Positions 30,089-42,716 of a DNA stretch of 64,000 nt are shown in pieces. Both the position numbers and the translations under genes were made by a program. Location: NCBI RefSeq assembly GCF_947241125.1, contig NZ_OX365700.1, positions 2,884,001 to 2,948,000 of the forward strand. Direction: 5' to 3'. The notes below the pieces were generated by a model, which was given only the letters and a program-made list of their open reading frames with translations, did not search any database and was not told where the DNA came from. Positions within the stretch are counted from its first letter, which is position 1. Every line of letters starts with the position of its first letter. The stretch comes from Nitrospira tepida (lineage in GTDB: Bacteria; Nitrospirota; Nitrospiria; Nitrospirales; Nitrospiraceae).

Positions 30089-30823
30089 ATGATCACCCCG
30101 CGCGCAATGCTCTGTGCCTGTCTGATCGTCTGGGCCGCCGTCGTTGGAGCCGGCTCACCGGCATGGGCCACTGACGAAGCCGAAACGAGCGAACTGCTTA
30201 TCAAGATGGTCAAAGCTGGCCGGGCGACCGTCTCCGAACATCAGGAATTGATCAACGACGCCTCCAAGGGCAACAAGGGATTTACAGGAGATTTTCTGGC
30301 GGAACAGGTCATCACCCGCTTCCGGAACCAAACCAAGATCGACCTGACGCGCCCCACCAATCTGCCCCAGGCCAATGTGCTGCTGAGTCTGCTTGAAGCC
30401 GAACGAGAGGTCGTGGACGAAGCACAGATCGTCATCAACAAGCAGGGCGTCGGATTCAAGGGCTTCCTGCCCGCCGTCTTTGCGCGCAAGACCGGAGAAC
30501 GGTTCTATCGGAAGACCGGCATCCGCATCAAATTGACCGGCATCGACTATCGCAATCCGAACAACCGTCCCGATGAGTTCGAGTCGGAGGTGCTCAAACT
30601 GTTTTCCGACAGCCGGCATCCGAAGGGACAACCCTATGCCAAGGCGACGATGTTGAACGGCAAACCGGTTTATCGGCTGATGGACCCGGAATATGCCGGC
30701 CCATCGTGCCTGTCTTGTCACGGCAATCCAAAGGGCGAACGGGACATCACCGGCATGCGAAAGGAAGGCTGGAAGGAAGGAGAACTGGCAGGCGCCCTGA
30801 GTATCGTCTATCCCATGAGATAA
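30089..30823 (+). CDS. Periplasmic c-type haem protein, DUF3365 (Tll0287-like)
   Basis: A 244-aa protein. ATG 30089 has GGAGG five bases upstream; ATG 30077 is an alternative. A signal peptide (AMLCACLIVWAAVVGAGSPAWA) is followed by a DUF3365 domain and a single CXXCH haem motif (SCLSCHGNPKGE) near the C-terminus. Relatives are haem proteins and sensor input domains with a PAS-like fold. It stands directly before CheY, CheW and MCP genes, which suggests a redox or gas-sensing input to that system. The link is inference from position. Confidence 0.82.
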   Translation: MITPRAMLCACLIVWAAVVGAGSPAWATDEAETSELLIKMVKAGRATVSEHQELINDASKGNKGFTGDFLAEQVITRFRNQTKIDLTRPTNLPQANVLLSLLEAEREVVDEAQIVINKQGVGFKGFLPAVFARKTGERFYRKTGIRIKLTGIDYRNPNNRPDEFESEVLKLFSDSRHPKGQPYAKATMLNGKPVYRLMDPEYAGPSCLSCHGNPKGERDITGMRKEGWKEGELAGALSIVYPMR

Positions 30824-30894: not shown

Positions 30895-31257
30895 ATGAGC
30901 AAGATCGTGGTCTGCGATGATTCCTACTCCGAACTGCAAATCATCGAGGGGTATCTGAAAGCCGCCAACCACACCGTCGTTACGTATCCCAATACCGATA
31001 AGCTCGAGGACAAGCTGGCGGCGGAGAAGCCGGATCTGGTCATCCTCGATGTGGTCATGCCGGGCCGAAACGGCTTCCAAGCCTGCCGCGACCTAAAGAA
31101 CGACGACCGGTTCAAACACATTCCCGTCGTCCTCTGCACCTCCAAAGGACAGGACAGCGACAAGTTTTGGGGTGAACAACAGGGGGCCAACGGCTACGTC
31201 GTGAAACCGTTCAAAGCGGAAGATCTCTTGGCCGCCGTGAAACGAGCGATGCATTGA
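30895..31257 (+). CDS. CheY-like response regulator (PilG/PilH type)
   Basis: A 120-aa lone receiver domain. The acidic pocket (VVCDDS), the phospho-acceptor Asp in ILDVVMPGRNG, the Thr in LCTSKGQ and the Lys in VVKPF are all present. A strong GAAGGAGG precedes the ATG. It is probably phosphorylated by the hybrid CheA at 33817. As in Pil-Chp systems, it could act on pilus motors or as a phosphate sink. Confidence 0.88.
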   Translation: MSKIVVCDDSYSELQIIEGYLKAANHTVVTYPNTDKLEDKLAAEKPDLVILDVVMPGRNGFQACRDLKNDDRFKHIPVVLCTSKGQDSDKFWGEQQGANGYVVKPFKAEDLLAAVKRAMH

Positions 31258-31308: not shown

Positions 31309-31785
31309 ATGGCACAGATTGACGTCCCCGTTCTCTCCACGGCGGCCGCGGCCGCGCACACCTTCCGCGCCTGTCTCTTCGTCATCGCGGGTGAATGGCT
31401 CGCGATTGATCTGCGATATGTACGGGAGGTGTTCCCCGTCGAGTCCGTAACCCCCGTCCCGAAAATGCCGTCCGTCCTCGTCGGCGTGGCGAACCTGCGG
31501 GGCACCGTCATGCCGCTGGTGGATATACGGCCGGCGTTGGGGTTGCCGCCCGCGCCTGTTCCCCAAAAACTCGCCGTGGTGATCAAGCATGGCCCTCAAC
31601 AAGCCGGTCTCTTGATCGACGACGTGCCCGAGATTCGCACCGTGTCGGCAGACGCCTTGCTCACGCCACCGTCACAAGCAGACCGGAGCGCACAGCCGTT
31701 CATTGCCGCGCTGCTCCCGATCGATGGCAAGATGGGCGGACTCATCGAAGTCCCTGCGCTGCTCTCCATCGTCGAGCGAGGTTAG
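31309..31785 (+). CDS. CheW-like coupling protein (PilI type)
   Basis: A 158-aa single CheW domain that links the MCP to CheA. The pattern CLFVIAGEWLAIDLRYVREV, the conserved GVANLRGTVMPLVDIRPALG and LLIDDVPEI are clear. It lies between the receiver gene and the MCP in the same direction. Confidence 0.87.
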   Translation: MAQIDVPVLSTAAAAAHTFRACLFVIAGEWLAIDLRYVREVFPVESVTPVPKMPSVLVGVANLRGTVMPLVDIRPALGLPPAPVPQKLAVVIKHGPQQAGLLIDDVPEIRTVSADALLTPPSQADRSAQPFIAALLPIDGKMGGLIEVPALLSIVERG

Positions 31786-31879: not shown

Positions 31880-33766
31880 ATGAAAAAGAGCAAGGGCGTC
31901 GGCCTGGAATCCATGAGCTGGTTTCGCGACCTGCGCACGGAAGCGAAATTGATCGTGGGATTCGGCCTGGTCAGTTTCATCATCATGTTCGTCGCGGGAC
32001 TGGGTTTCTTCAAACTCCGCCAACTCGCAGGCCAATCACAGGTGACCTATGTGGATTACGTCGTGCCGTTGGCCGAGTTCTCGGAAATGGGCACCGCGTT
32101 GACCGATCATCACCAGATCCTGCTTCAGATGGCCTCGGCATCGCGCAAGAGCGATGTGGAAGCGGAAACCCCGAAACTCGCGAAGCATGAAGACACCGTG
32201 ATGAGGGTGCTGCGCGAATACGAATCGACGACCCTGCGGGTGTCGCGGGCCGGGCGCGATGAAGCCGCGGATCTGGCGCTGCTCAAGCCGGCTATCCTGC
32301 GCTATTTCACCGAAGCCAAGAATTCCACGCACGCGTACCTCGATAGTTTCGACCGGACCTTGTCGCCCGAGCAGTCTCAACAACTCCGCGATCTCGGCAT
32401 CTTGGCCCTCACGGTCAACCTGACACCCATCTTCGAGCAGGCGGTCCTTCGGCACAGCGAACAGGTCACCACCATGAAGGACATTGCCAATGATCTGAAC
32501 GAAGAGGCCAAAGCCATCGCGAATAACGGAGAGAAGCTGCTCCTCATCGGCGGTGTGGTGGCCGTCGCCCTCGGCTTGTGGTTTGGATACCGCCTGGCCA
32601 GATTCTTTTCGCGAAACGTCATCCACATCGCGGAAGTCGCCACCCAGGCTGCGGGCGGAAATTTCCAAGCCCGCGCCAAGGTCGAAAGCCACGACGAGTT
32701 CGGTCAGATGGCCAAGGCGTTCAACGCCATGTTGGACCGTTTGACCACCCTCCTGCAAACGGAGGAGGAGCGCGACACCATGCAAAAGCGCCTCATGGCC
32801 TTCCTCGTCATGGTCTCCGAGGTGGGGAAAGGCGACTTGACTAAACGGGGCGAGGTGACGGCCGACATGTTCGGAAACCTGGCCGACGGGTTGAACCTGA
32901 TGTTGGCCAGGTTCGGCAAATTGCTCGGTCAGGTGCGTGATGCGGCCGAACGAGTCAACCGTTCAGCCGGCTCGCTGCGGGAGACAGCTTCTCAAATGTC
33001 GGGAACGGCCAAACACCAGGCGGAAGAGTCCGTCCGCACGTTGGGTGCGGTCGAGCTCCTGACGTCGTCGATGCGGCAGGTCGCGGATACGGCAACCGCC
33101 TCATCCGAAAGCGCCAAACAAGTGCTGTCCGCCACTGAGAAAGGCCGGCAAGCCGTGCAGGAGACGGTACAAGACATGCAGAACATCCGCGCCGCCGTGC
33201 AACGGATGTCCAAACAGGTCAAAGCGCTGGGTGACCGGTCGTTGGAGATTTCCCAGATCGTGTCCACCATTCGGGACATCGCGTCCCAGACCAACCTGCT
33301 CGCCTTGAACGCCGCGATCGAGGCGGCGGGCGCGGGCGAAGCAGGAGCCCGATTCGCGGTCGTCGCCGACCAGGTCCGCAAACTGGCGGAAAGCTCGACG
33401 CAGGCCACCCGTGAAATCACGGAGCTGGTCAAGGGCATCCAATCCGAAACGCAGGACGCCGTGGTCGCCATGGAGCACGAGACCCAGGCTGTGGAAGCCG
33501 GCTCGCAATCGGCCTTGAAAACGGGTGAAGTGTTCTCGGAAATTTCGGATATCGCCAAGCGGTCGGCCGAGCTGGCCGTCGCCATCGCAACATCCGCCAC
33601 CGAGCAGACTCAATCAACGGAGCGCGTGGGCCGGTCGCTGAAGGACTTTACCGGCGGCGCCGTGGCGACGCAGAAAGCGACCGATACGACCAGGCAAACC
33701 ATCGAAGAGATGGCGAAACTCGCCGAAGGTCTGACCGCGCAAGTCAGTCAGTTCAAGCTCGTGTGA
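31880..33766 (+). CDS. Methyl-accepting chemotaxis protein (PilJ-like)
   Basis: A 628-aa transmembrane receptor. ATG 31880 follows GAGG. It has a first membrane helix ([20 protein letters not shown]), a helical periplasmic sensor of about 150 residues (four-helix-bundle type), and a second helix ([20 protein letters not shown]). A HAMP domain and a second HAMP-like segment follow ([20 protein letters not shown]). The signalling hairpin carries the conserved [20 protein letters not shown] tip. It has no CheB/CheR-tethering pentapeptide at the C-terminus. It sends its signal through the adjacent CheW and CheA. Confidence 0.9.
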
Positions 33767-33816: not shown

Positions 33817-36800
33817 ATGGGCAACGAGTTCGATAAAAATCAACTCGTCGACATCTTTGTCGCCGAATCCAGCGATGCCGTCTCCAGCATGCAGGCGGCG
33901 CTGAATCCCGCCGACCAGTCGCTGCCCAGCCCTCAGGTGGCCCAGGAACAGAAGGCCCTGGCTCACCGTACGAAGGGGGCGGCGCTCCTCTATGAGTTTC
34001 CCACACTCGGCAAGCTGTGCGACATGCTGGAGCACCTCTTTGAGCGGGCCACCGAGTTCTCCAGTTCGGACTGGCCGCGCGTCGTGGGGACGCTTCGTGC
34101 GTTGGTGGATGCCGCGCAGGTGCAGATCAACGCCATCGCCCATAGCCACCAGGAGCAGGATGATTCGTTGACGGCCGTCAAGGCCGAGTACGCCGAAGCC
34201 CTGATGTTGCTGAAAGCGGCTCAGGAGCCTCAGCAGGCTGAGTTACCAGACGCCTCGTATCTCATGCCGGCCATTGACGATGAGGTCATGTCCTACTTTC
34301 TTCCCGAGATGGAAGAACACTTGGGTAGAATTCAGGCGCATCTGGAGCATCTGTCCGCCAACCCCGACGACCCTGATCGTATGCATCAGTTGTTCCGGTC
34401 GGTCCACACCGTCAAAGGGTCCGCACACACGGTCGGATTCACGGTCATTGGAGATGTCGCCCTTCCACTTGAAGAGCGGTTGGGCGAAACCCGAGACGAT
34501 CGCAGCGCGATTTCCGCGTCCTTGTTGGAATTGACCGCGGAAACCATGCGCGTGGTCCGCCGGCTGCTCGCCAGAGACACCGCACAGCTTGATTCACTCC
34601 AACGGGACGTGCCGGCGCTCCTGTCGAGACTTCAGGCGTCCCGACCGGCAAGCGTCCTGCAGCCCGACGGAGGACGGCAGGTCCCGTCTTCGACGCCCAT
34701 ATCGGTTCCCAGCACCACGGTCGCCCCGCTTGAGACCGGCACTGTTGTCGAGCCGGCCCACCATCCGGATGAGCTCACGGCCGAATACCTCTGTCCTGTA
34801 CTCGACCCAGAGGTGCTTTCCTATTTTGTTCCCGAAGCCCAGGAACATCTCGATGCGCTCGAAGCCTTGCTGTTGAAGCTTGAGAAGGCGCCGCACAGCA
34901 TGGACTTGATCCATCAGTTGTTCCGAAGCGCCCACACCCTCAAGGGGTCGGCACTCACGGTGGGCTTTACCTGCATTGGCGATCTTGTCCATTATGTGGA
35001 AGATCTCATGGGCGCGTTGCGCGAGGGGCGCATGAAGCTCCTCGCCGGGATGACGGACCTCATTCTGCGATCCATTGACGTCGTCCGGCTCCTCATGCGT
35101 CGCGATCCTTCGACGTTGCCGCAAGTCCGCGAACGCTTCCGCGCCGTCGCCAAAGAACTGCAGGCGTTTGCGAGCCCTAGCGCTGCGGGAGCGGTGGCAC
35201 CGGCGCAGGCCTCGCCTCCGGCCGAGCGGGCCTCGCCAGCGGCTCAGGAGGCGCGCGAGGCGCCGCAGTCGGAAGAGTCCTCCGGATCACAGGGACACGA
35301 CGTCATTCGCGTCAATCGCGAACGGTTGGAGCGGCTGCTGAACCTGGTTGGTGAGTTGGTGATTGGACGGGGACGCCTTGAACAGCGGTTGCTCGTCCTC
35401 GAGCATCTGTCGAATCAGGTCCAGTCGTTCAAAGGCAAGATGCTCGAAACGGTCAGGAGCTTCGAGGAAAAGCACTCCTTCACCCTTCCGACCGCCACCC
35501 CTTCTGCCGGCCCTCCGTCAAGTCCCGCTCACGTCCCCGGCCTGCAGGACTTTGGCGCGTTGGAATTCGATAAATATGACGACTTCAACATCCTGGCGCG
35601 GCGCATTTCTGAAGTGACCGCCGATGTTACAGAGGCGATGGCACAACTCTCGGGGTCCATCCGCCAAGCGCGCGAGGACATGAGCCAGCTTCAACATCTG
35701 ACGCTCGGCATGCGGGACGAAATCGCCCGGGCCAGGATGGTGGCGATCGGAACCCCGTTCACCCGCTTCCGCCGAGCCGTTCGGGAGATGGCCCGCGCCA
35801 CCGGAAAAGAAGTGACGTTGGTCACGTCGGGCGAGCATACGGAGGTGGATACCGGCATCGTCGAACGTTTGGTCGAACCGCTCGTGCACCTCGTCCGCAA
35901 CGCGGTTTACCACGGCATCGAGCCGGCAGGAGTCCGCGTGGCCCAGTGCAAGCCCGCGGTCGGAACCGTCTATCTGCACGCCGCCCATCGCGGCAACGCC
36001 GTGGTTATCGAAGTCGAAGACGACGGAGCGGGGATTGACACGGACAAGGTCAAGGCCAAGGCCGTTGCCAAAGGACTCGTTTCTGCCGCGCTGGCGAAGA
36101 CCATGCCGGATTCAGAGGCCATGAAGCTGATTTTTCTGCCCGGCTTCTCGACGGCCGACGAGGTGGGAGACCAGGCCGGACGGGGCGTCGGCCTCGATGC
36201 CGTCAAGAAAGTCATTGAAAGCATGAACGGCTTCGTTGAGATTGAAACGGCGAAAGGAGTCGGCACCAAGTTCACCCTGAGCCTTCCGCTCACGTTGCTG
36301 ATCGCCACAGCCTTGATTGTGCGGGCCGGCACCCAACGGTACGCCATCCCACTGCCGAGCGTCCGAGAGGTCACCATCCCCACCGACAACACACTGCAAC
36401 GGATTGCGTCGGATTGGGTCTTGCACGCCGGCAATGAAGCGATTCCTGTCCAGTCGCTGACGCACGCCTTAAGCGGCATTCCCGCGGAGGTGCCGGAGCT
36501 GTCGCCGATCGTCATTGTCCGGGCGCCCACCGGCTCGCTCGGTCTGGCCGTCGATGAGTTGTTGGGCCGGCAGGAAATCGTCGTCAAATCACTCGGCTCG
36601 CTCAAGGTTCTCGAACGATCCAGTTTTGGAGGCGCCTCGATCGACCCCGAAGGCCGCGTGATCTTGGTCGTCGATGTCACCAGACTTGGGCAAGGGGACC
36701 GAGTCGCAGCGCTCTCCGCCGTAGAAGCGGCCGACCCGCCTCAACTCAGCGACCAGGGATCGCTCTCCGGTGCGGCTGCCCAGGAAGAGGCCCCTACCGG

Positions 36801-37182
36801 TCCTGCCATTCTCTTGATCGACGATTCGCTCAGCATCCGCAAGTTCGTCGCCCGCATGTTGGAGAATGCCGGGTATGCCGTCGATACCGCGGTGGACGGG
36901 GAGGACGGCCTGCGCAAGGCCGCCGCCAACCGCTATCGCCTGGTTATTACGGATTTGGAGATGCCGAAACTCAACGGATACGAAGTGATCCAAGCGCTTC
37001 GAGGTCGGGCTCAATCCCAGACGCTCCCGATCGTGGTGATGACGACCAGAGCCGGCGACAAGCATCGCCAACTGGCGCTGAACATCGGCGCCAGCGGGTA
37101 TATCGCCAAGCCCGTTGAAGAACGGGCGCTGATCGCTGAAGTAGAGCGCTGGTTGCAACTGCCCCAGTCGATGCGAACGTGA
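33817..37182 (+). CDS. Hybrid chemotaxis kinase CheA (PilL/ChpA-like) with three Hpt domains and a receiver
   Basis: An 1121-aa cytoplasmic kinase. Three Hpt-type domains carry the histidine at about residues 50 (HRTKGAA), 197 (HTVKGSA) and 373 (HTLKGSA). An Ala/Pro/Glu-rich linker is followed by the dimerisation helices (interrupted by an insert around 545-600). The ATPase domain has an N-box LVRNAVYHGIE, G1 DDGAGID and G2 GRGVGLDAVK. A CheW-like domain follows, and a C-terminal receiver with Asp 1046 in ITDLEMPKLNGYE. This layout matches the ChpA/PilL kinases of type IV pilus systems, though with fewer Hpt domains than ChpA. No cheR or cheB is seen in the window. Confidence 0.92.
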   Translation: MGNEFDKNQLVDIFVAESSDAVSSMQAALNPADQSLPSPQVAQEQKALAHRTKGAALLYEFPTLGKLCDMLEHLFERATEFSSSDWPRVVGTLRALVDAAQVQINAIAHSHQEQDDSLTAVKAEYAEALMLLKAAQEPQQAELPDASYLMPAIDDEVMSYFLPEMEEHLGRIQAHLEHLSANPDDPDRMHQLFRSVHTVKGSAHTVGFTVIGDVALPLEERLGETRDDRSAISASLLELTAETMRVVRRLLARDTAQLDSLQRDVPALLSRLQASRPASVLQPDGGRQVPSSTPISVPSTTVAPLETGTVVEPAHHPDELTAEYLCPVLDPEVLSYFVPEAQEHLDALEALLLKLEKAPHSMDLIHQLFRSAHTLKGSALTVGFTCIGDLVHYVEDLMGALREGRMKLLAGMTDLILRSIDVVRLLMRRDPSTLPQVRERFRAVAKELQAFASPSAAGAVAPAQASPPAERASPAAQEAREAPQSEESSGSQGHDVIRVNRERLERLLNLVGELVIGRGRLEQRLLVLEHLSNQVQSFKGKMLETVRSFEEKHSFTLPTATPSAGPPSSPAHVPGLQDFGALEFDKYDDFNILARRISEVTADVTEAMAQLSGSIRQAREDMSQLQHLTLGMRDEIARARMVAIGTPFTRFRRAVREMARATGKEVTLVTSGEHTEVDTGIVERLVEPLVHLVRNAVYHGIEPAGVRVAQCKPAVGTVYLHAAHRGNAVVIEVEDDGAGIDTDKVKAKAVAKGLVSAALAKTMPDSEAMKLIFLPGFSTADEVGDQAGRGVGLDAVKKVIESMNGFVEIETAKGVGTKFTLSLPLTLLIATALIVRAGTQRYAIPLPSVREVTIPTDNTLQRIASDWVLHAGNEAIPVQSLTHALSGIPAEVPELSPIVIVRAPTGSLGLAVDELLGRQEIVVKSLGSLKVLERSSFGGASIDPEGRVILVVDVTRLGQGDRVAALSAVEAADPPQLSDQGSLSGAAAQEEAPTGPAILLIDDSLSIRKFVARMLENAGYAVDTAVDGEDGLRKAAANRYRLVITDLEMPKLNGYEVIQALRGRAQSQTLPIVVMTTRAGDKHRQLALNIGASGYIAKPVEERALIAEVERWLQLPQSMRT

Positions 37183-37218: not shown

Positions 37219-37695
37219 ATGGCCTTTCGCCAACGTGTGACCACTCCGACCGCCGATTCCCACACCGCGCGCTTCTTGGTCGTTCGTCTTCACCGCACGT
37301 ATCTGGCCATTTGGGCGGAAAGCGTTCGTGGCGTGTTCACCGAACGGGAGTGTGATCCCAAACGGGATATCGTCTTGCTCGGGGAGCACTACACGCCGAT
37401 GAATTTGGCTGCACGATTCCGGTTGCCCGATCCACGACCGACCCCGGAGACCCGAATCGTGCTCTGTAGTCGGGATCGCTGGCGTTGTGCCAGCCCGGTG
37501 GATCAGGTCATCGGATTGACCGATATCCGTCGGGAGCACATTCTGCCGCTGCCCCGTCTATTCAGCGGCGAGGAACGGATGTGGTTCCGAGGACTGTTCT
37601 TGTTTCAGGAGGCGGTCGCCCTTCTGGTCAACCCCGACTGGCTTGTTCAAGAGGACCAGACAGGCCGGCGGCTTGCCAATGCGGTCGGATCGTAG
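37219..37695 (+). CDS. CheW-like domain protein (divergent)
   Basis: A 158-aa protein with a divergent CheW fold: ARFLVVRLHRTYLAIWAESV at the front, IVLCSRDRWRCASPVDQVIG in the middle and a hydrophobic end (FRGLFLFQEAVALLVNPDWL). The usual NLRG loop is replaced by TPMNLAARF. Probably a second coupling protein for the array or a CheA-competing one. Confidence 0.7.
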   Translation: MAFRQRVTTPTADSHTARFLVVRLHRTYLAIWAESVRGVFTERECDPKRDIVLLGEHYTPMNLAARFRLPDPRPTPETRIVLCSRDRWRCASPVDQVIGLTDIRREHILPLPRLFSGEERMWFRGLFLFQEAVALLVNPDWLVQEDQTGRRLANAVGS

Positions 37696-37785: not shown

Positions 37786-38250
37786 ATGCTCAAACATACC
37801 CAGCCATCGGGCAAGCCCGTTCCGGTCGCCGCCACCATCCAACTTCTGGTGTTCCGGATCGGAGGACACACCTTCGCCGCCCGAGCGGAGGAGGTCGGCG
37901 GGGTCCAACCTTGGCCGATGACGATGCCGGTTCCCAGTTCCTCGCGATTCCTCACCGCCATCGCCCGCCGGCACGATGAAGTCCTGCCCGTCTACGACTT
38001 GGCCGGACAGCTTTCCCTTTCAATTCGGGACTCAGCTCCCTTGGCCCTTTTGGTTAAACATGCACTGGGTCCGCTGATCGTACGAATTGATTCTGAAATT
38101 CCTTCGCTGGAAACGGTCGGGGCTGATATGATTCGGCCTGCGTCCGGACTCTATCCCGGGGTGAGGCAGGTTTGTCGACTGACCCACCTCGAGGTCCCGA
38201 TGCTGTCGCTTCGGACGCTTGGGACGACACAGGAGAGTGTGACCGCATGA
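37786..38250 (+). CDS. CheW-like domain protein (divergent)
   Basis: A 154-aa protein with a CheW-type start (IQLLVFRIGGHTFAARAEEV), a middle strand DEVLPVYDLAGQLSL and a C-terminal VPMLSLRTL. The third CheW-like protein of the cluster. Sequence is far from the one at 31309, so it probably binds a different partner. Confidence 0.7.
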   Translation: MLKHTQPSGKPVPVAATIQLLVFRIGGHTFAARAEEVGGVQPWPMTMPVPSSSRFLTAIARRHDEVLPVYDLAGQLSLSIRDSAPLALLVKHALGPLIVRIDSEIPSLETVGADMIRPASGLYPGVRQVCRLTHLEVPMLSLRTLGTTQESVTA

Positions 38251-38269: not shown

Positions 38270-39754
38270 ATGCCGCGTGTTTTAGTTGCAGACGACAGCA
38301 TCGCGGTACGCAAGGTGGCGGAACGCCTGTTGAAGGAGGCGGGGCTGAATGTCACCCTGGCTGCCAACGCCGAAGAGGCCATCACCTTGCTGGAGCATGA
38401 CCCGCCGGACATCGTGGTGTCCGACGTCATCATGCCCGATAAGAGCGGCTACGAAGTCTGCGGCTATGTCCGCTCGCACTCAAAGTTTGCGGCTATTCCC
38501 GTCCTTCTGATTTCCGGCATCGTCAATGATGACGTCACGAAGCAGGCGGAATCCTGTCGCGCGGACGGCGTGCTCAAGAAGCCGTTTCAAGGGACTTCGC
38601 TCCAGGACCGTGTCTCCGCGCTCCTGCACAAACGCCAACCAGCCGCCCCGCCTGCTCCGGCTCCGGCGCCGCCTTCTGCGCCCGCCGATCTCAAACCGAC
38701 GGAATCGGCACGAGCTGCTTCCGCCGCACCGGCCCAGCACATTGCGGACCATGAGCTGGATTCTTACCGTCTGGCGGCCAGCCGCCTGAAAGAAATCGAA
38801 CACGAACTCGCTCAAGAACGAGCGCGTTCCTCCACATTGGCCCACGAACTGGAGGAGGCCACACGTCAACAGGCGCAAGCCGGCTCTCTGGAAGATCAGT
38901 TGCGCGCCGAGCGTGACCATGTCGCGCAATTGATGCAACGCGCCTCCGATTTAGAATTGGAGGCCAAGCGAGGGCAGGAAGCCGAGGTGGCGCTGGCGGC
39001 CGAACGCGAACGAATCGCCCAACTGACGACCGCGTTGTCGGAAGCGCAAGCAGCGGCTCAATCGGAAGCGCAGCACGCTCAGGAGATCGCACAGGCCCTC
39101 GAAGAACACCGGGTCCGGGTGGCGGAACTGACCCAGGCCCTCGCCGGAGCGCGAGAGACCGCACAAAAAGTACAGGAGCTCGAAGCAACACTGGTGGCCG
39201 AGCGGGCGGCACAGGCTGAGTTGGTCAAGCAGATGACCGAGCTTGAACAGAAAGCGACACGTCTGGCGGAAGTTGAATCCGACCTCCAGGAGGCCAGCGC
39301 CGAACGCGACGGCCTGCGCAAACAGTGCGCCGCAGCCGAAGCCGAACTCGGCATGCGGACGAACGAAGCGACGCAACTCCGAGATCAACTGCGCGCCGCC
39401 CACGCCGCCTTGGCGGACGCCCGCCAGCACATCGAGCAGGTGGACGCCGATCTCGCCAATGCGAAACCTCAGGCCTCCCGCGTGCCGGAGTTGGAACAGA
39501 CGCTGGCGACGGTCCAGGAACGCGCGGAGCAATTGGCCGCGGAACTTGCGGAAGCCAAGCCCAAGGCGGATCGTCTTCCCGACCTCGAACGCGCCCTTGC
39601 CGCGGAGCGGGAACGCAACGATGCGCTCATCCGCCGTATCGGTGAGGCAGAACATGCCGCCGAGCAATCCGCCAAGCGCTTGGAAGACATGGCCAGAAAG
39701 CTCGGAGAAATTGCGGGGCTCGCATCAAAACTGGGAAGCGGCCCCGGTCGATAA
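38270..39754 (+). CDS. Receiver domain plus long coiled coil (FrzS/AglZ-like layout)
   Basis: A 494-aa protein. Residues 1-122 form a receiver (VADDSIAVRK; phospho-Asp in VVSDVIMPDKSGYE; Lys in LKKPF). A Pro/Ala linker is followed by roughly 320 residues of Ala/Glu/Gln/Arg heptads with no proline, a long coiled coil. The design is that of FrzS and AglZ of Myxococcus, which place motility machinery at poles or focal sites; unlike those pseudo-receivers this one keeps its phospho-acceptor. It is probably an output of the CheA at 33817. Confidence 0.82.
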   Translation: MPRVLVADDSIAVRKVAERLLKEAGLNVTLAANAEEAITLLEHDPPDIVVSDVIMPDKSGYEVCGYVRSHSKFAAIPVLLISGIVNDDVTKQAESCRADGVLKKPFQGTSLQDRVSALLHKRQPAAPPAPAPAPPSAPADLKPTESARAASAAPAQHIADHELDSYRLAASRLKEIEHELAQERARSSTLAHELEEATRQQAQAGSLEDQLRAERDHVAQLMQRASDLELEAKRGQEAEVALAAERERIAQLTTALSEAQAAAQSEAQHAQEIAQALEEHRVRVAELTQALAGARETAQKVQELEATLVAERAAQAELVKQMTELEQKATRLAEVESDLQEASAERDGLRKQCAAAEAELGMRTNEATQLRDQLRAAHAALADARQHIEQVDADLANAKPQASRVPELEQTLATVQERAEQLAAELAEAKPKADRLPDLERALAAERERNDALIRRIGEAEHAAEQSAKRLEDMARKLGEIAGLASKLGSGPGR

Positions 39755-39785: not shown

Positions 39786-40724
39786 ATGGCAGAACCGGCG
39801 GTCGCAGGCGATGAGTTTCAGCGCGAACTCCTTGAACTTTTCGCCGCCGAAGCCTACGAGTGGCTCGCGCAGATTCAACAGGCGCTCGCCCGCTTCCAAG
39901 CTTCCCTGGATCCCTCCGTGAGGTCCGACGCCTTGGACGTCATCGCCCGCGGAATTACCAGCCTGGGAGGGTCCGCAGCCACAATCGATCTTCCGGCCAT
40001 CCAGGAACTGGTGTTCAGTCTTCTGCCATTGCTGGAGCAGCTCCGCGGAGCGGACTCGATGGGCGCCAGCGAGACGCTCGCCAAGCTACGCGACTCGCTC
40101 GCCAACATCACGGAACTGGTGGCGTCCAATACCGGCATCCCCGCGACCGTCACCTTTGAAGCGCAGCAGCCGGGCCTGCGCCACGCCAAAGAGTTGCTGC
40201 ACGCGCTCCATACGCTGCGCCGGACGCAGATGCGCACAGCGCCTGCTCCCCGTTCCGTGATAGACAGCGTGATCCGACTGGTGCAGCAGGACCTGGAGCG
40301 GGGATACTCCCAAGTGGATCCGCCGACCCTCGTCGCGCAAGTGGACGAGGTCTGTCGCGATCATGACGATTTTGTCCGCCGGGTACAGTCCGCGCTTCCA
40401 TTCCTGAGTGCAGCCGTGGCGGCCTTGAAATCCATGTCCCGCCAGCCGGCCTCGAACCGTCCTGTTGATCGGACTACGGAATGTCTCCAGACGGTGGATC
40501 AGCTTGTGGATCAAGCACGGCAACGCGACGCCGTGCCATTGCTGCATTTCTTTCAGGGCCTGTCCTCGTTCATCAAGATTGCAACCGAGCGCCGGTTGGC
40601 GATATCTGCCCAGCGGTTCGGAGCGGTGGAGACTCGCTTGGCCGCCCTGGGAGCAACCGCCCAGGCATGGCTCGAAGCCGAGCGAGAGGAACGAACGGCG
40701 ATCGTCGAACTCCTAGCGGCCTGA
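39786..40724 (+). CDS. Helical protein with Hpt-like fold lacking the phospho-histidine
   Basis: A 312-aa helical protein. Residues about 5-110 resemble an Hpt domain (FAAEAYEWLAQIQQALARFQ; then ITSLGGSAATIDLPAI). Aligned to HTLKGSA in the neighbouring CheA, the histidine position is Thr and the lysine is Gly, so it cannot take phosphate in the usual way. The rest is helical without motifs. ATG 39786 is the first sensible start; the longer frame overlaps the coiled-coil gene. It may bind the receiver proteins without phosphotransfer. Confidence 0.7.
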   Translation: MAEPAVAGDEFQRELLELFAAEAYEWLAQIQQALARFQASLDPSVRSDALDVIARGITSLGGSAATIDLPAIQELVFSLLPLLEQLRGADSMGASETLAKLRDSLANITELVASNTGIPATVTFEAQQPGLRHAKELLHALHTLRRTQMRTAPAPRSVIDSVIRLVQQDLERGYSQVDPPTLVAQVDEVCRDHDDFVRRVQSALPFLSAAVAALKSMSRQPASNRPVDRTTECLQTVDQLVDQARQRDAVPLLHFFQGLSSFIKIATERRLAISAQRFGAVETRLAALGATAQAWLEAEREERTAIVELLAA

Positions 40725-40828: not shown

Positions 40829-41623
40829 ATGGCCTATGAGCAGTTCTGGGGCTTGCAGACTCGACCGTTCGACAATGTTCCCGATCCGAGGTTTTACTTT
40901 CCATCCGCGAAGCACGAGACCGCCCGCCAGCGCATGCTCTATGGAATCGAGGCGCGAAAGGGAGCCCTGTTGTTGACGGGCGCCATCGGATCGGGAAAAA
41001 CCCTGCTGAGCCGGGCGCTCGTCCTCGCCCTTCATCCGTCCCGCTACGACATGGCGCTCGTGACCAACCCGGCGCTGCCCGTCGTGGAATTTCTGGCGGA
41101 GATTGCGTATCAGTTCGGCCTGAGTCCTGAAGGCAGCAAGCGGGAACTGATGCACCGACTGCATGACCGGTTCCTCCAGAACCATCAACAAGGTATGACC
41201 ACGGTGTTGATCGTCGACGAAGCCCAAAGCATCACGGAAGACCGCATTTTCGAAGAACTGCGGCTCCTCCTGAACTTTCAGTTGAACCATCAATGTCTCG
41301 TGACGCTGCTGCTGATGGGCCAACCGGAATTGGCCGACCGGGTGCGCGGCATCCTGCAACTGGATCAACGCATTGCGCTGCGCTGCCACCTGCTGCCGTT
41401 CGACGAAGAGGAGACGCGGGCCTATATCACCGCCAGACTCCGATCTGCGGGAACGTCCCGCGACCTGTTTTCCAAGGATGCCCAGTCCGAGATTCACCGG
41501 CAGTCCGGCGGCGTGTGCCGCGTGATCAATTCCATCTGCGATCTCTGTTTGTTGCTCGGATCTCTGGACGCGGTGGATTGCATCACACCGCTCCTGGTCG
41601 AGCAGGCGCTGAAGGTATTGTAA
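40829..41623 (+). CDS. ExeA/GspA-type AAA ATPase
   Basis: A 264-aa AAA ATPase with the family opening MAYEQFWGLQTRPFDNVPDP and the pattern RFYFPSAKHETA. Walker A is GAIGSGKT and Walker B is VLIVDEAQ; a sensor 1-like region LLLMGQPEL follows. Unlike ExeA it ends after the AAA domain and lacks the peptidoglycan-binding part. Members help to assemble secretin-type machines such as type II secretion or type IV pili. Confidence 0.85.
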   Translation: MAYEQFWGLQTRPFDNVPDPRFYFPSAKHETARQRMLYGIEARKGALLLTGAIGSGKTLLSRALVLALHPSRYDMALVTNPALPVVEFLAEIAYQFGLSPEGSKRELMHRLHDRFLQNHQQGMTTVLIVDEAQSITEDRIFEELRLLLNFQLNHQCLVTLLLMGQPELADRVRGILQLDQRIALRCHLLPFDEEETRAYITARLRSAGTSRDLFSKDAQSEIHRQSGGVCRVINSICDLCLLLGSLDAVDCITPLLVEQALKVL

Positions 41624-41633
41624 AGGCAAGCCG

Positions 41634-42716
41634 ATGGCAGACCATCAGGCGATGATCAATCAACAGGCCGACGCAGACGGCTGGTATCAAGCGGCGACAC
41701 GGGAACTGTCCCGCCTCAGCCGGACAGTCCGATTGCAGGACCCGCTGGATCTCACCAAGTTGGCGGACATCGCGAAAGGCATGACCACATCGCTCGACCG
41801 ATCGGAGGCTCTCGTCGTCCAGGCGCTGTCGGCCCCGTTGGGAGACCGGTTGATCGCCAATCTCGTGCACGTGGGCATCCTGGCCGCACGAATCGGTTTA
41901 GGTCTCGGCTACAACGGCCGCCAATTGGAGCAACTCACCCTCGCGGGCCTTCTGCACGACATCGGCATCTTTTCGGTGCCGCCGTCGCTGATTCAAAAAC
42001 CCGGCAAACTGACGCCGCAGGAACGAGCCGTCCTGGAACAGCATCCCGAGGCCGGCTTCAAGACGATCACGCGACTGGGGCCGGACTATGACTGGTTGGC
42101 GACCGTGGTGCGCCAGGCGCATGAACGATGGTCCGGCCAGGGGTATCCGCAGCGGCTCAAAGGCAGCCAGATTCATCCCTTCGCCCAGGTGATCGGGTTG
42201 GCGGACGTGTTTGAAGCGTTGGTCAGCCCGCGACCCTATCGCCGCCGCATGCTTCCGCACGAAGCCATGCGTGAACTGTTGCGGCACGAGCGAGGCGCCT
42301 TCTCGCGGACGGTCCTCAAGGCGCTCGTCGAACAACTGTCCGTCTATCCCCTGGGAACCAAGGTCCGCCTGAGTTCAGGGGATGAGGGGTTCGTCATCCG
42401 CCTCAATCCACGGTTTCCCATGAGACCCGTCGTCCAGATCGGCGATGAAGACTCGGGAAGCGAGCTCACGACCGTGATCGACCTAAGCTCAACGCCGGAC
42501 CTGTGTATTCTGGATGCCGTCGCCCCGCCGGAACCTCACTACCTGTCGCGTTCGCCGGACAAACCTTCACCGATTCTTTCCGAAGAGGAACCCCAATCCT
42601 TTTCCGATCGCTTCTCGGCTCTGCTGGAAGGGCTTGATGAGATCGCCTCCACTATTCAACAGGTGGTGGAGTCTCAAGGAGAATCCCCGGAATCCGGCTC
42701 TTCGTCTGTCCCATAA
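41634..42716 (+). CDS. HD-GYP domain protein (c-di-GMP phosphodiesterase-like)
   Basis: A 360-aa soluble protein. The HD-GYP core lies at about residues 80-240: LAGLLHDIGIFSVP, the metal His in EQHPEAGF, AHERWSGQGYP, and ADVFEALVSPRPYR. The usual HHExxDGxGYP reads AHERWSGQGYP, so one histidine and the Asp are changed; activity may be reduced or altered. The C-terminal 100 residues are a small beta-rich part and an acidic tail. The gene follows the ExeA-type ATPase by ten bases. Confidence 0.82.
   Translation: MADHQAMINQQADADGWYQAATRELSRLSRTVRLQDPLDLTKLADIAKGMTTSLDRSEALVVQALSAPLGDRLIANLVHVGILAARIGLGLGYNGRQLEQLTLAGLLHDIGIFSVPPSLIQKPGKLTPQERAVLEQHPEAGFKTITRLGPDYDWLATVVRQAHERWSGQGYPQRLKGSQIHPFAQVIGLADVFEALVSPRPYRRRMLPHEAMRELLRHERGAFSRTVLKALVEQLSVYPLGTKVRLSSGDEGFVIRLNPRFPMRPVVQIGDEDSGSELTTVIDLSSTPDLCILDAVAPPEPHYLSRSPDKPSPILSEEEPQSFSDRFSALLEGLDEIASTIQQVVESQGESPESGSSSVP

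Follow-up and report, generated by a model that had tools for sequence, protein, structure and literature searches.

Gene row around the receiver/coil gene

The window, i.e., the whole stretch of 64,000 nucleotides of Nitrospira tepida DNA that was analysed, contains an open reading frame at positions 38270-39754 on the + strand, which begins with ATG, ends with an in-frame stop codon and encodes a protein of 494 amino acids. The protein is composed of an N-terminal receiver and a long predicted coiled coil and is referred to here as the receiver/coil protein. Its gene is separated by 19 bases from the CheW gene before it and by 31 bases from the gene that follows it in a CheA operon, within a row of the order PilG-CheW-MCP-CheA-CheW-CheW-REC/coil-Hpt. 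All named genes between 30095 and 42716 are located on the + strand:

30095..30823, + strand: secreted Tll0287-like protein (PF11845) carrying CxxCH, first gene of the row (Pfam)
30895..31257, + strand: PilG/CheY-like single receiver (Pfam)
31309..31785, + strand: CheW, PilI-like (Pfam)
31880..33766, + strand: methyl-accepting chemotaxis protein, MCP (4HB, HAMP, MCPsignal; Pfam)
33817..37182, + strand: CheA with three Hpt domains and a C-terminal receiver, ChpA/PilL-like architecture (Pfam)
37219..37695, + strand: CheW (Pfam)
37786..38250, + strand: CheW, ending 19 bases before the receiver/coil gene (Pfam)
38270..39754, + strand: receiver / 31-residue-repeat coiled-coil protein (ORF call, Pfam, AlphaFold2, residue conservation, repeat matrix)
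39786..40724, + strand: degenerate Hpt protein, termed pseudo-Hpt (Pfam Hpt, profile alignment, model)
40829..41623, + strand: ExeA/XrtA-type AAA ATPase, a variable member of the row (TIGR03015, E 1.3e-63)
41634..42716, + strand: HD-GYP-type protein (HD_5; domain match)

A scan of a genome collection retained 80 of 120 relatives. CheA was encoded upstream of the receiver/coil gene in all 74 loci with enough flanking sequence, which agrees with the position inside a CheA operon described in the earlier note. By the same measure, 74 of 77 loci had a CheW gene directly upstream, and in 67 of 70 the HD-GYP gene followed downstream. The loci L114, L117 and L118, from which the CheW gene was missing, represent a divergent operon: their receiver/coil protein is 37-38% identical, their CheA was matched over about 650-690 residues, and no extra CheW match was found directly upstream. 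The AAA ATPase gene was found in 35 of 70 loci, and its score with TIGR03015 (XrtA/PEP-CTERM-associated ATPase) lies under the cut-off of the model. The Tll0287-like protein at the head of the row has, as judged by eye, a signal-peptide-like N-terminus. Its CxxCH motif reads CLSCH, and such a motif was present in 38 of 38 orthologues longer than 200 amino acids. In this nitrite oxidiser, the protein may serve as a sensor with c-type haem in the periplasm that signals to the MCP.

In Pseudomonas, the Pil-Chp genes are arranged in the order PilG, PilI, PilJ, ChpA. The Nitrospira row follows this order with a PilG-like receiver, a PilI-like CheW, a PilJ-like MCP and a ChpA-like CheA possessing multiple Hpt domains and a C-terminal receiver. 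It differs by the addition of two CheW genes, the receiver/coil protein, the pseudo-Hpt, the AAA ATPase and the HD-GYP gene. Furthermore, the Nitrospira CheA shows three Hpt matches, whereas eight potential ones are ascribed to ChpA in PMC3019171. The acceptor His of the three CheA Hpt domains was kept in 68/68, 67/68 and 68/68 cases, respectively, and the checked residues of the ATP-binding boxes in 68/68. In the PilG-like receiver, D8, D9, D52, T82 and K104 were present in 63 of 63 orthologues; its switch position was split between Y (26) and H (37) despite the invariant phospho-site. The Pil-Chp system of P. aeruginosa is the closest working parallel. A description of the second Nitrospira chemosensory system was not found in searches of the open-licence PMC literature. 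A promoter and terminator scan gave sites no more frequent than in shuffled sequences, and a second full-length copy of the receiver/coil gene was not found in the own genome.

Receiver, coiled coil and 31-residue repeat

The only Pfam domain above the cut-off in the receiver/coil protein was Response_reg (residues 4-115, E 7e-22). The AlphaFold2 model, calculated from 30 orthologues with a mean pLDDT of 78.6, comprises a receiver (residues 1-121), a linker of low confidence (residues 122-168) and helices at residues 169-397, 405-422 and 439-486, in total about 320 residues of predicted helix. The following parts were distinguished:

38270..38632, + strand: receiver domain, residues 1-121 (Pfam, alignment, AlphaFold2 model)
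38291, 38294, 38423, 38513, 38570 and 38579: first bases of the receiver codons D8, D9, D52, S82, V101 and K104, respectively
38633..38773, + strand: Pro/Ala-rich disordered linker, residues 122-168 (pLDDT about 40-50)
38774..39727, + strand: helical coiled coil, residues 169-486 (heptad period, AlphaFold2 model, repeat matrix)
39677..39739, + strand: conserved C-terminal motif, residues 470-490 (low entropy, invariant columns)

In a structure search, the receiver matched CheY4, RR468 and MicA with Z 19-20 and an rmsd of 1.3-2.1 Å over 114-121 residues at 28-30% identity, and the modelled fold is that of an ordinary, canonical receiver. D8, D9, D52, S82 and K104 were invariant in all 81 sequences (window and 80 loci), so that the acidic pair, the phospho-Asp, the Ser/Thr and the Lys of a phospho-receiver are all present, as the earlier note had described for the acidic pocket, Asp and Lys. 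The Tyr or Phe of the switch position is absent: V101, three residues before the Lys, was Val in 81/81 sequences. Among nine other receiver stretches of the own genome aligned at this position, seven had Y/F and two had V; Val is therefore a minority state in this genome, yet not unique.

The conservation of the receiver was compared with that of the PilG-like receiver and the CheA receiver over the 63 loci with all three proteins. Helix alpha1 of the receiver/coil protein was invariant at 93% of its positions; the PilG-like receiver reached 21% and the CheA receiver 50%. For the beta5-alpha5 loop, the corresponding values were 83%, 17% and 67%. In the receiver/coil protein, all positions of strands beta4 and beta5 were invariant, as were those of the loops beta3-alpha3 and beta4-alpha4, whereas alpha4 and alpha5 were less well kept (36% and 30%). 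Hpt domains usually contact alpha1 and the beta5-alpha5 loop of a receiver. The conservation of alpha1 could alternatively reflect contact with the Hpt domains of CheA. The lack of an aromatic residue at the switch position speaks against an output by canonical Y/T signalling via the alpha4-beta5-alpha5 face.

The long coiled coil behind the receiver, which the earlier note had proposed and suggested to verify by prediction, was recovered both in the AlphaFold2 helices and in the heptad-like period of the tail. Compared with shuffled sequences, this period had a z of 12.4 for the window protein and a median of 10.8 with a minimum of 5.9 over 81 sequences. The hydrophobic period was 3.45 in 77 of them and 3.5 in four. 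A coil built of heptads only was rejected, because just 26 of 198 length gaps of at least 5 amino acids between orthologues were multiples of seven. Instead, the length differences clustered at 31, 62, 25 and 56 residues, which led to a search for a 31-residue repeat. The best self-match lag of the tails was 31 in 67 of 80 tested and 62 in eight. A position matrix detected 556 copies of ARVQELEAALAAERERAAQLxQRLAELExxA across the 81 proteins, with 4-9 copies per protein, and neighbouring copies were spaced by exactly 31 residues in 383 of 475 pairs. In the shuffled control, with one shuffle for each of the 81 tails, none was detected. The window protein contains seven recognised repeats, starting at residues 171, 202, 233, 268, 299, 403 and 434.

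As read from the position table, nine core positions per 31 residues would give a period of 3.44, in line with the measured one, and each repeat would consist of heptads with one three-residue insertion. A three-residue insertion in a heptad pattern is termed a stammer. The C-terminal end of the coil around ARKLGEIAGLASKLG was much better conserved than the rest, with a mean entropy of 0.51 bits for residues 465-490 versus 1.52 bits for the whole coil. In our searches of the open-licence PMC literature, we found neither a published account of 31-residue coiled-coil repeats nor mention of this repeat or of the constant pseudo-Hpt neighbour described below.

The adjoining pseudo-Hpt and the distribution of the gene pair

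The gene at 39786-40724 matched Pfam Hpt with E 2.2e-8 and was located directly downstream of the receiver/coil gene in 76 of 76 testable loci. In hhalign comparisons with Hpt2 and Hpt3 of CheA (probability 92-94%), its product had Thr at the position of the acceptor His and Gly at that of the Lys. The acceptor His was absent in 78/78 alignment rows, six of which are fused paralogues and not the adjacent gene. The structural model (mean pLDDT 90.3) matched the P1 domain of Thermotoga maritima CheA with its N-terminal half at Z 13.7, with an rmsd of 2.2 Å over 104 residues and 21% identity. Two designed helical bundles outranked CheA P1 among the structure matches; helical four-helix folds can reach high Z by chance, which tempers this match between model and CheA P1.

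An Hpt-like fold lacking the acceptor His is also the hallmark of FimL, for which PMC3019171 describes two Hpt-like domains, each having Gln in place of the acceptor. According to PMC10519157, PilG of P. aeruginosa is brought to the poles by FimL as well as by ChpA and becomes polarised when ChpA phosphorylates it. The arrangement with PilG and FimV resembles the Nitrospira row in that a pseudo-Hpt without acceptor His occurs together with a phosphorylatable receiver and a CheA of the ChpA type. The Nitrospira protein differs in having one recognised Hpt-like domain with Thr followed by a second helical half, and in being encoded beside a receiver bearing its own coiled-coil rod; the two proteins are likened here by description, not by sequence.

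In four loci, L047 (13323-15398), L065, L102 (9174-11453) and L119, the HD-GYP gene carries an additional, fused copy of the pseudo-Hpt; the same fusion in L053 and L070 was judged by match position only. The paralogue sits behind the HD-GYP domain, and in the two fusions examined Pfam recognised the HD domains alone and no Hpt.

Of the 175 family genomes, 151 had a match to the receiver/coil protein at E <= 1e-15; these included 102 of the 114 good genomes and covered 16 of 22 genera. The 80 retained loci were labelled Nitrospira, Nitrospiraceae or Nitrospirae, with the exception of L076 and L097, which carry the label Nitrosospira and have the same operon. When the phylum Nitrospirota was searched at E <= 1e-22, 118 of 295 genomes had a match; 73 of them belonged to the same family, one to the same order and 44 to other groups, in which the matches are to the receiver. 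The one genome of the order beyond the family had a clear match to the receiver/coil protein. The 14 of the 44 loci that were read all encode receivers with other tails and were rejected as orthologues. The pair of receiver/coil protein and pseudo-Hpt appears to be nearly confined to the Nitrospiraceae.

Twelve of these 14 loci (L132-L137, L139 and L141-L145, with L145 as a diverged form) represent a separate Nitrospirota family, in which the receiver is followed by a long linker of acidic character and the conserved C-terminus is of the VPDLAE type and resembles VIWETVPDLAETLITKEIEKIK. Such proteins (12 of the 14 loci fetched) share the N-terminal receiver and a long extension with the receiver/coil protein, but they have no coiled-coil repeat and another C-terminus, and they are mostly encoded outside CheA operons or without nearby chemotaxis genes. 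The other two loci, L138 (8122-9318) and L140 (8351-9562), belong to one Nitrospirota family, in which a receiver with a third kind of tail directly adjoins PilG-, CheW- and CheA-like genes. Judged by this position, it is a possible functional counterpart of the receiver/coil protein.

A possible output of a second chemosensory system

No pilus genes are located within the receiver/coil operon. The earlier note had suggested a phosphorylation-controlled polar organiser of pili, and pilus genes are indeed present elsewhere in the genome, with PilQ (at 1716538) and PilT (at 3717059) above the cut-off. With these genes and the predicted coiled coil, neither of the two refuting conditions named in that note applies. 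The genome has two CheA genes: that of the receiver/coil operon at 2919299 and another at 3527133, with fliF (3538933) at a distance of about 12 kb. A PilT-family match was present in 171 of the 175 family genomes and above the cut-off in 158. Of the 151 genomes with the receiver/coil gene, 144 had PilT above the cut-off and 127 had FliF. All seven gene-bearing genomes without PilT above the cut-off were at most 92% complete, and the four genomes without any PilT-family match all lacked the receiver/coil gene. The gene was present in 127 of 132 genomes with FliF versus 24 of 43 without; these 24 include a one-contig and a five-contig genome that are 99% complete (G046 and G051). Fisher p values for co-occurrence with PilT and FliF were 4e-6 and 1e-9, respectively, not corrected for descent. 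Since PilT-family genes are near-universal in the family, gene co-occurrence says little about a link to pili, and as the association with FliF is at least as strong, it was dropped as a proof of such a link. For a cultured Nitrospira that has no flagellum genes, PMC12542776 reports MCP and CheW/Y together with a full set for type IV pili. The chemotaxis-like operon with the receiver/coil gene is probably tied to type IV pili.

We favour, at about even chances, the reading that the receiver/coil protein serves as phosphorylatable output and scaffold of a second, non-flagellar, Pil-Chp-like chemosensory system in the Nitrospiraceae. It builds on the observed domains, residue conservation, repeat, gene order, pseudo-Hpt, pilus genes and distribution; from these we infer phosphorylation, oligomerisation, docking, localisation or polarity, and a pilus target. 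In such a system, the MCP/CheW array would set the activity of the multi-Hpt CheA, which would hand phosphate to D52 of the receiver/coil protein and to the PilG-like receiver. The receiver would be borne on an oligomeric rod of 31-residue repeats, seven here and 4-9 in relatives, whose conserved C-terminal motif might act as an anchor and hold the complex in position, most likely close to the pilus machinery. The pseudo-Hpt, presumably unable to carry phosphate, would dock on the Hpt-facing side of the receiver (alpha1 and beta5-alpha5 loop), as FimL may do with PilG, and either tether it or read out its phosphorylation state. In the end, the type IV pilus machine would be controlled locally.

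The earlier note had likened the protein to FrzS and AglZ of Myxococcus xanthus. Both indeed have a receiver at the N-terminus with a long coiled coil behind it and are tied to a chemosensory kinase, and a link to surface motility is for the Nitrospira protein a proposal only. Membership in this family was rejected, because the phospho-site is kept, the switch residue is Val and MglA was not found in the own genome with one Arf model, whose sole match reads as translation initiation factor IF-2. The contrast in the receivers drawn in the earlier note holds: the phospho-site is intact in 81/81 Nitrospira sequences, while no FrzS/AglZ paralogue has a functional one according to PMC4546325. FrzS has Ala at the Asp site and does not bind Mg, its Asp55Ala variant is without phenotype, and Tyr102Ala abolishes S-motility (PMC1974792), whereas the Nitrospira protein lacks the switch aromatic. 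Further differences on the Nitrospira side are the gene position in a CheA operon, the 31-residue repeat and the pseudo-Hpt partner; V101, the repeat and the adjoining pseudo-Hpt are additions beyond the earlier note. FrzS was not among the 60 PDB sequence matches listed of 221 or the 50 structure matches listed, and might be present further down. By its residues, the Nitrospira protein looks like a mirror image of FrzS, with the Asp kept and the switch aromatic lost.

According to PMC11580455, the coil of FrzS is enough for polar localisation and its pseudo-receiver binds SgmX, so a division of labour between coil and receiver has a precedent, and by analogy a FrzS-like role is plausible. In its strict form, the receiver would be a docking module only, not controlled by phosphorylation of D52, and the coil would bring the pilus extension machine to the pole. 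Such a polar recruiter would fit the layout, the two FrzS activities and the missing switch aromatic in 81/81 sequences, but a mere docking module would need none of the five phospho-site residues, which are kept throughout although each of the 29 relatives in alignment A1 is only 42-50% identical to the window protein. As MglA was also not found in the own genome, we regard this explanation as unlikely.

In another reading, the target would be the HD-GYP protein. The receiver/coil protein and the pseudo-Hpt would then recruit and regulate it in the control of c-di-GMP, exopolysaccharide or aggregation rather than of pilus position. The HD-GYP gene downstream in 67/70 loci and the physical link by fusion to a pseudo-Hpt paralogue in six loci are in accord with this. 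However, the fusion is limited to few loci, the two fused parts examined gave no Pfam Hpt call, and the HD-GYP activity is putative, which makes this explanation quite improbable. A phosphate sink is a poor candidate as well. Here, an abundant receiver concentrated at the array by its coil would drain CheA and keep the PilG-like signal short and local, for which three receivers with intact sites in the row and a receiver with little need for an output conformation, having no switch aromatic, would be suited. A sink leaves the C-terminal motif, the pseudo-Hpt partner and the 31-residue repeat unexplained, and the same idea was rejected for PilH in P. aeruginosa (PMC10519157). That the protein is an output of flagellar chemotaxis is very improbable despite the strong co-occurrence with FliF over 175 genomes, given the 24 gene-bearing genomes without FliF, two of them 99% complete, and the other CheA gene near fliF in the own genome.

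Returning to the phosphorylatable output and scaffold, a more specific and rather speculative version, to which we assign a low probability, extends the mirror image of FrzS. It would use phospho chemistry without an aromatic switch, its output would be, instead of switching at alpha4-beta5-alpha5, a phosphorylation-gated capture or release by the dedicated pseudo-Hpt on the invariant Hpt face, and the length-variable rod, along which the receiver is displayed, would position the pilus (or HD-GYP) machinery. If true, the function of pseudo-Hpts would be to read the phosphorylation of receivers, and FimL, too, might work by this mechanism.

As nitrite oxidisers and complete nitrifiers, Nitrospira are of major importance; they live in flocs and biofilms. 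The receiver/coil protein is a new, conserved variant of receiver/coiled-coil output proteins. Coil-based placement and receiver phosphorylation, two properties confounded in FrzS, are separated in this protein pair, and the role of pseudo-Hpts such as FimL becomes testable with one small pair of proteins. With the receiver/coil gene in 151/175 genomes of the family, the gene pair would provide a conserved output module for the second chemosensory system of Nitrospira.
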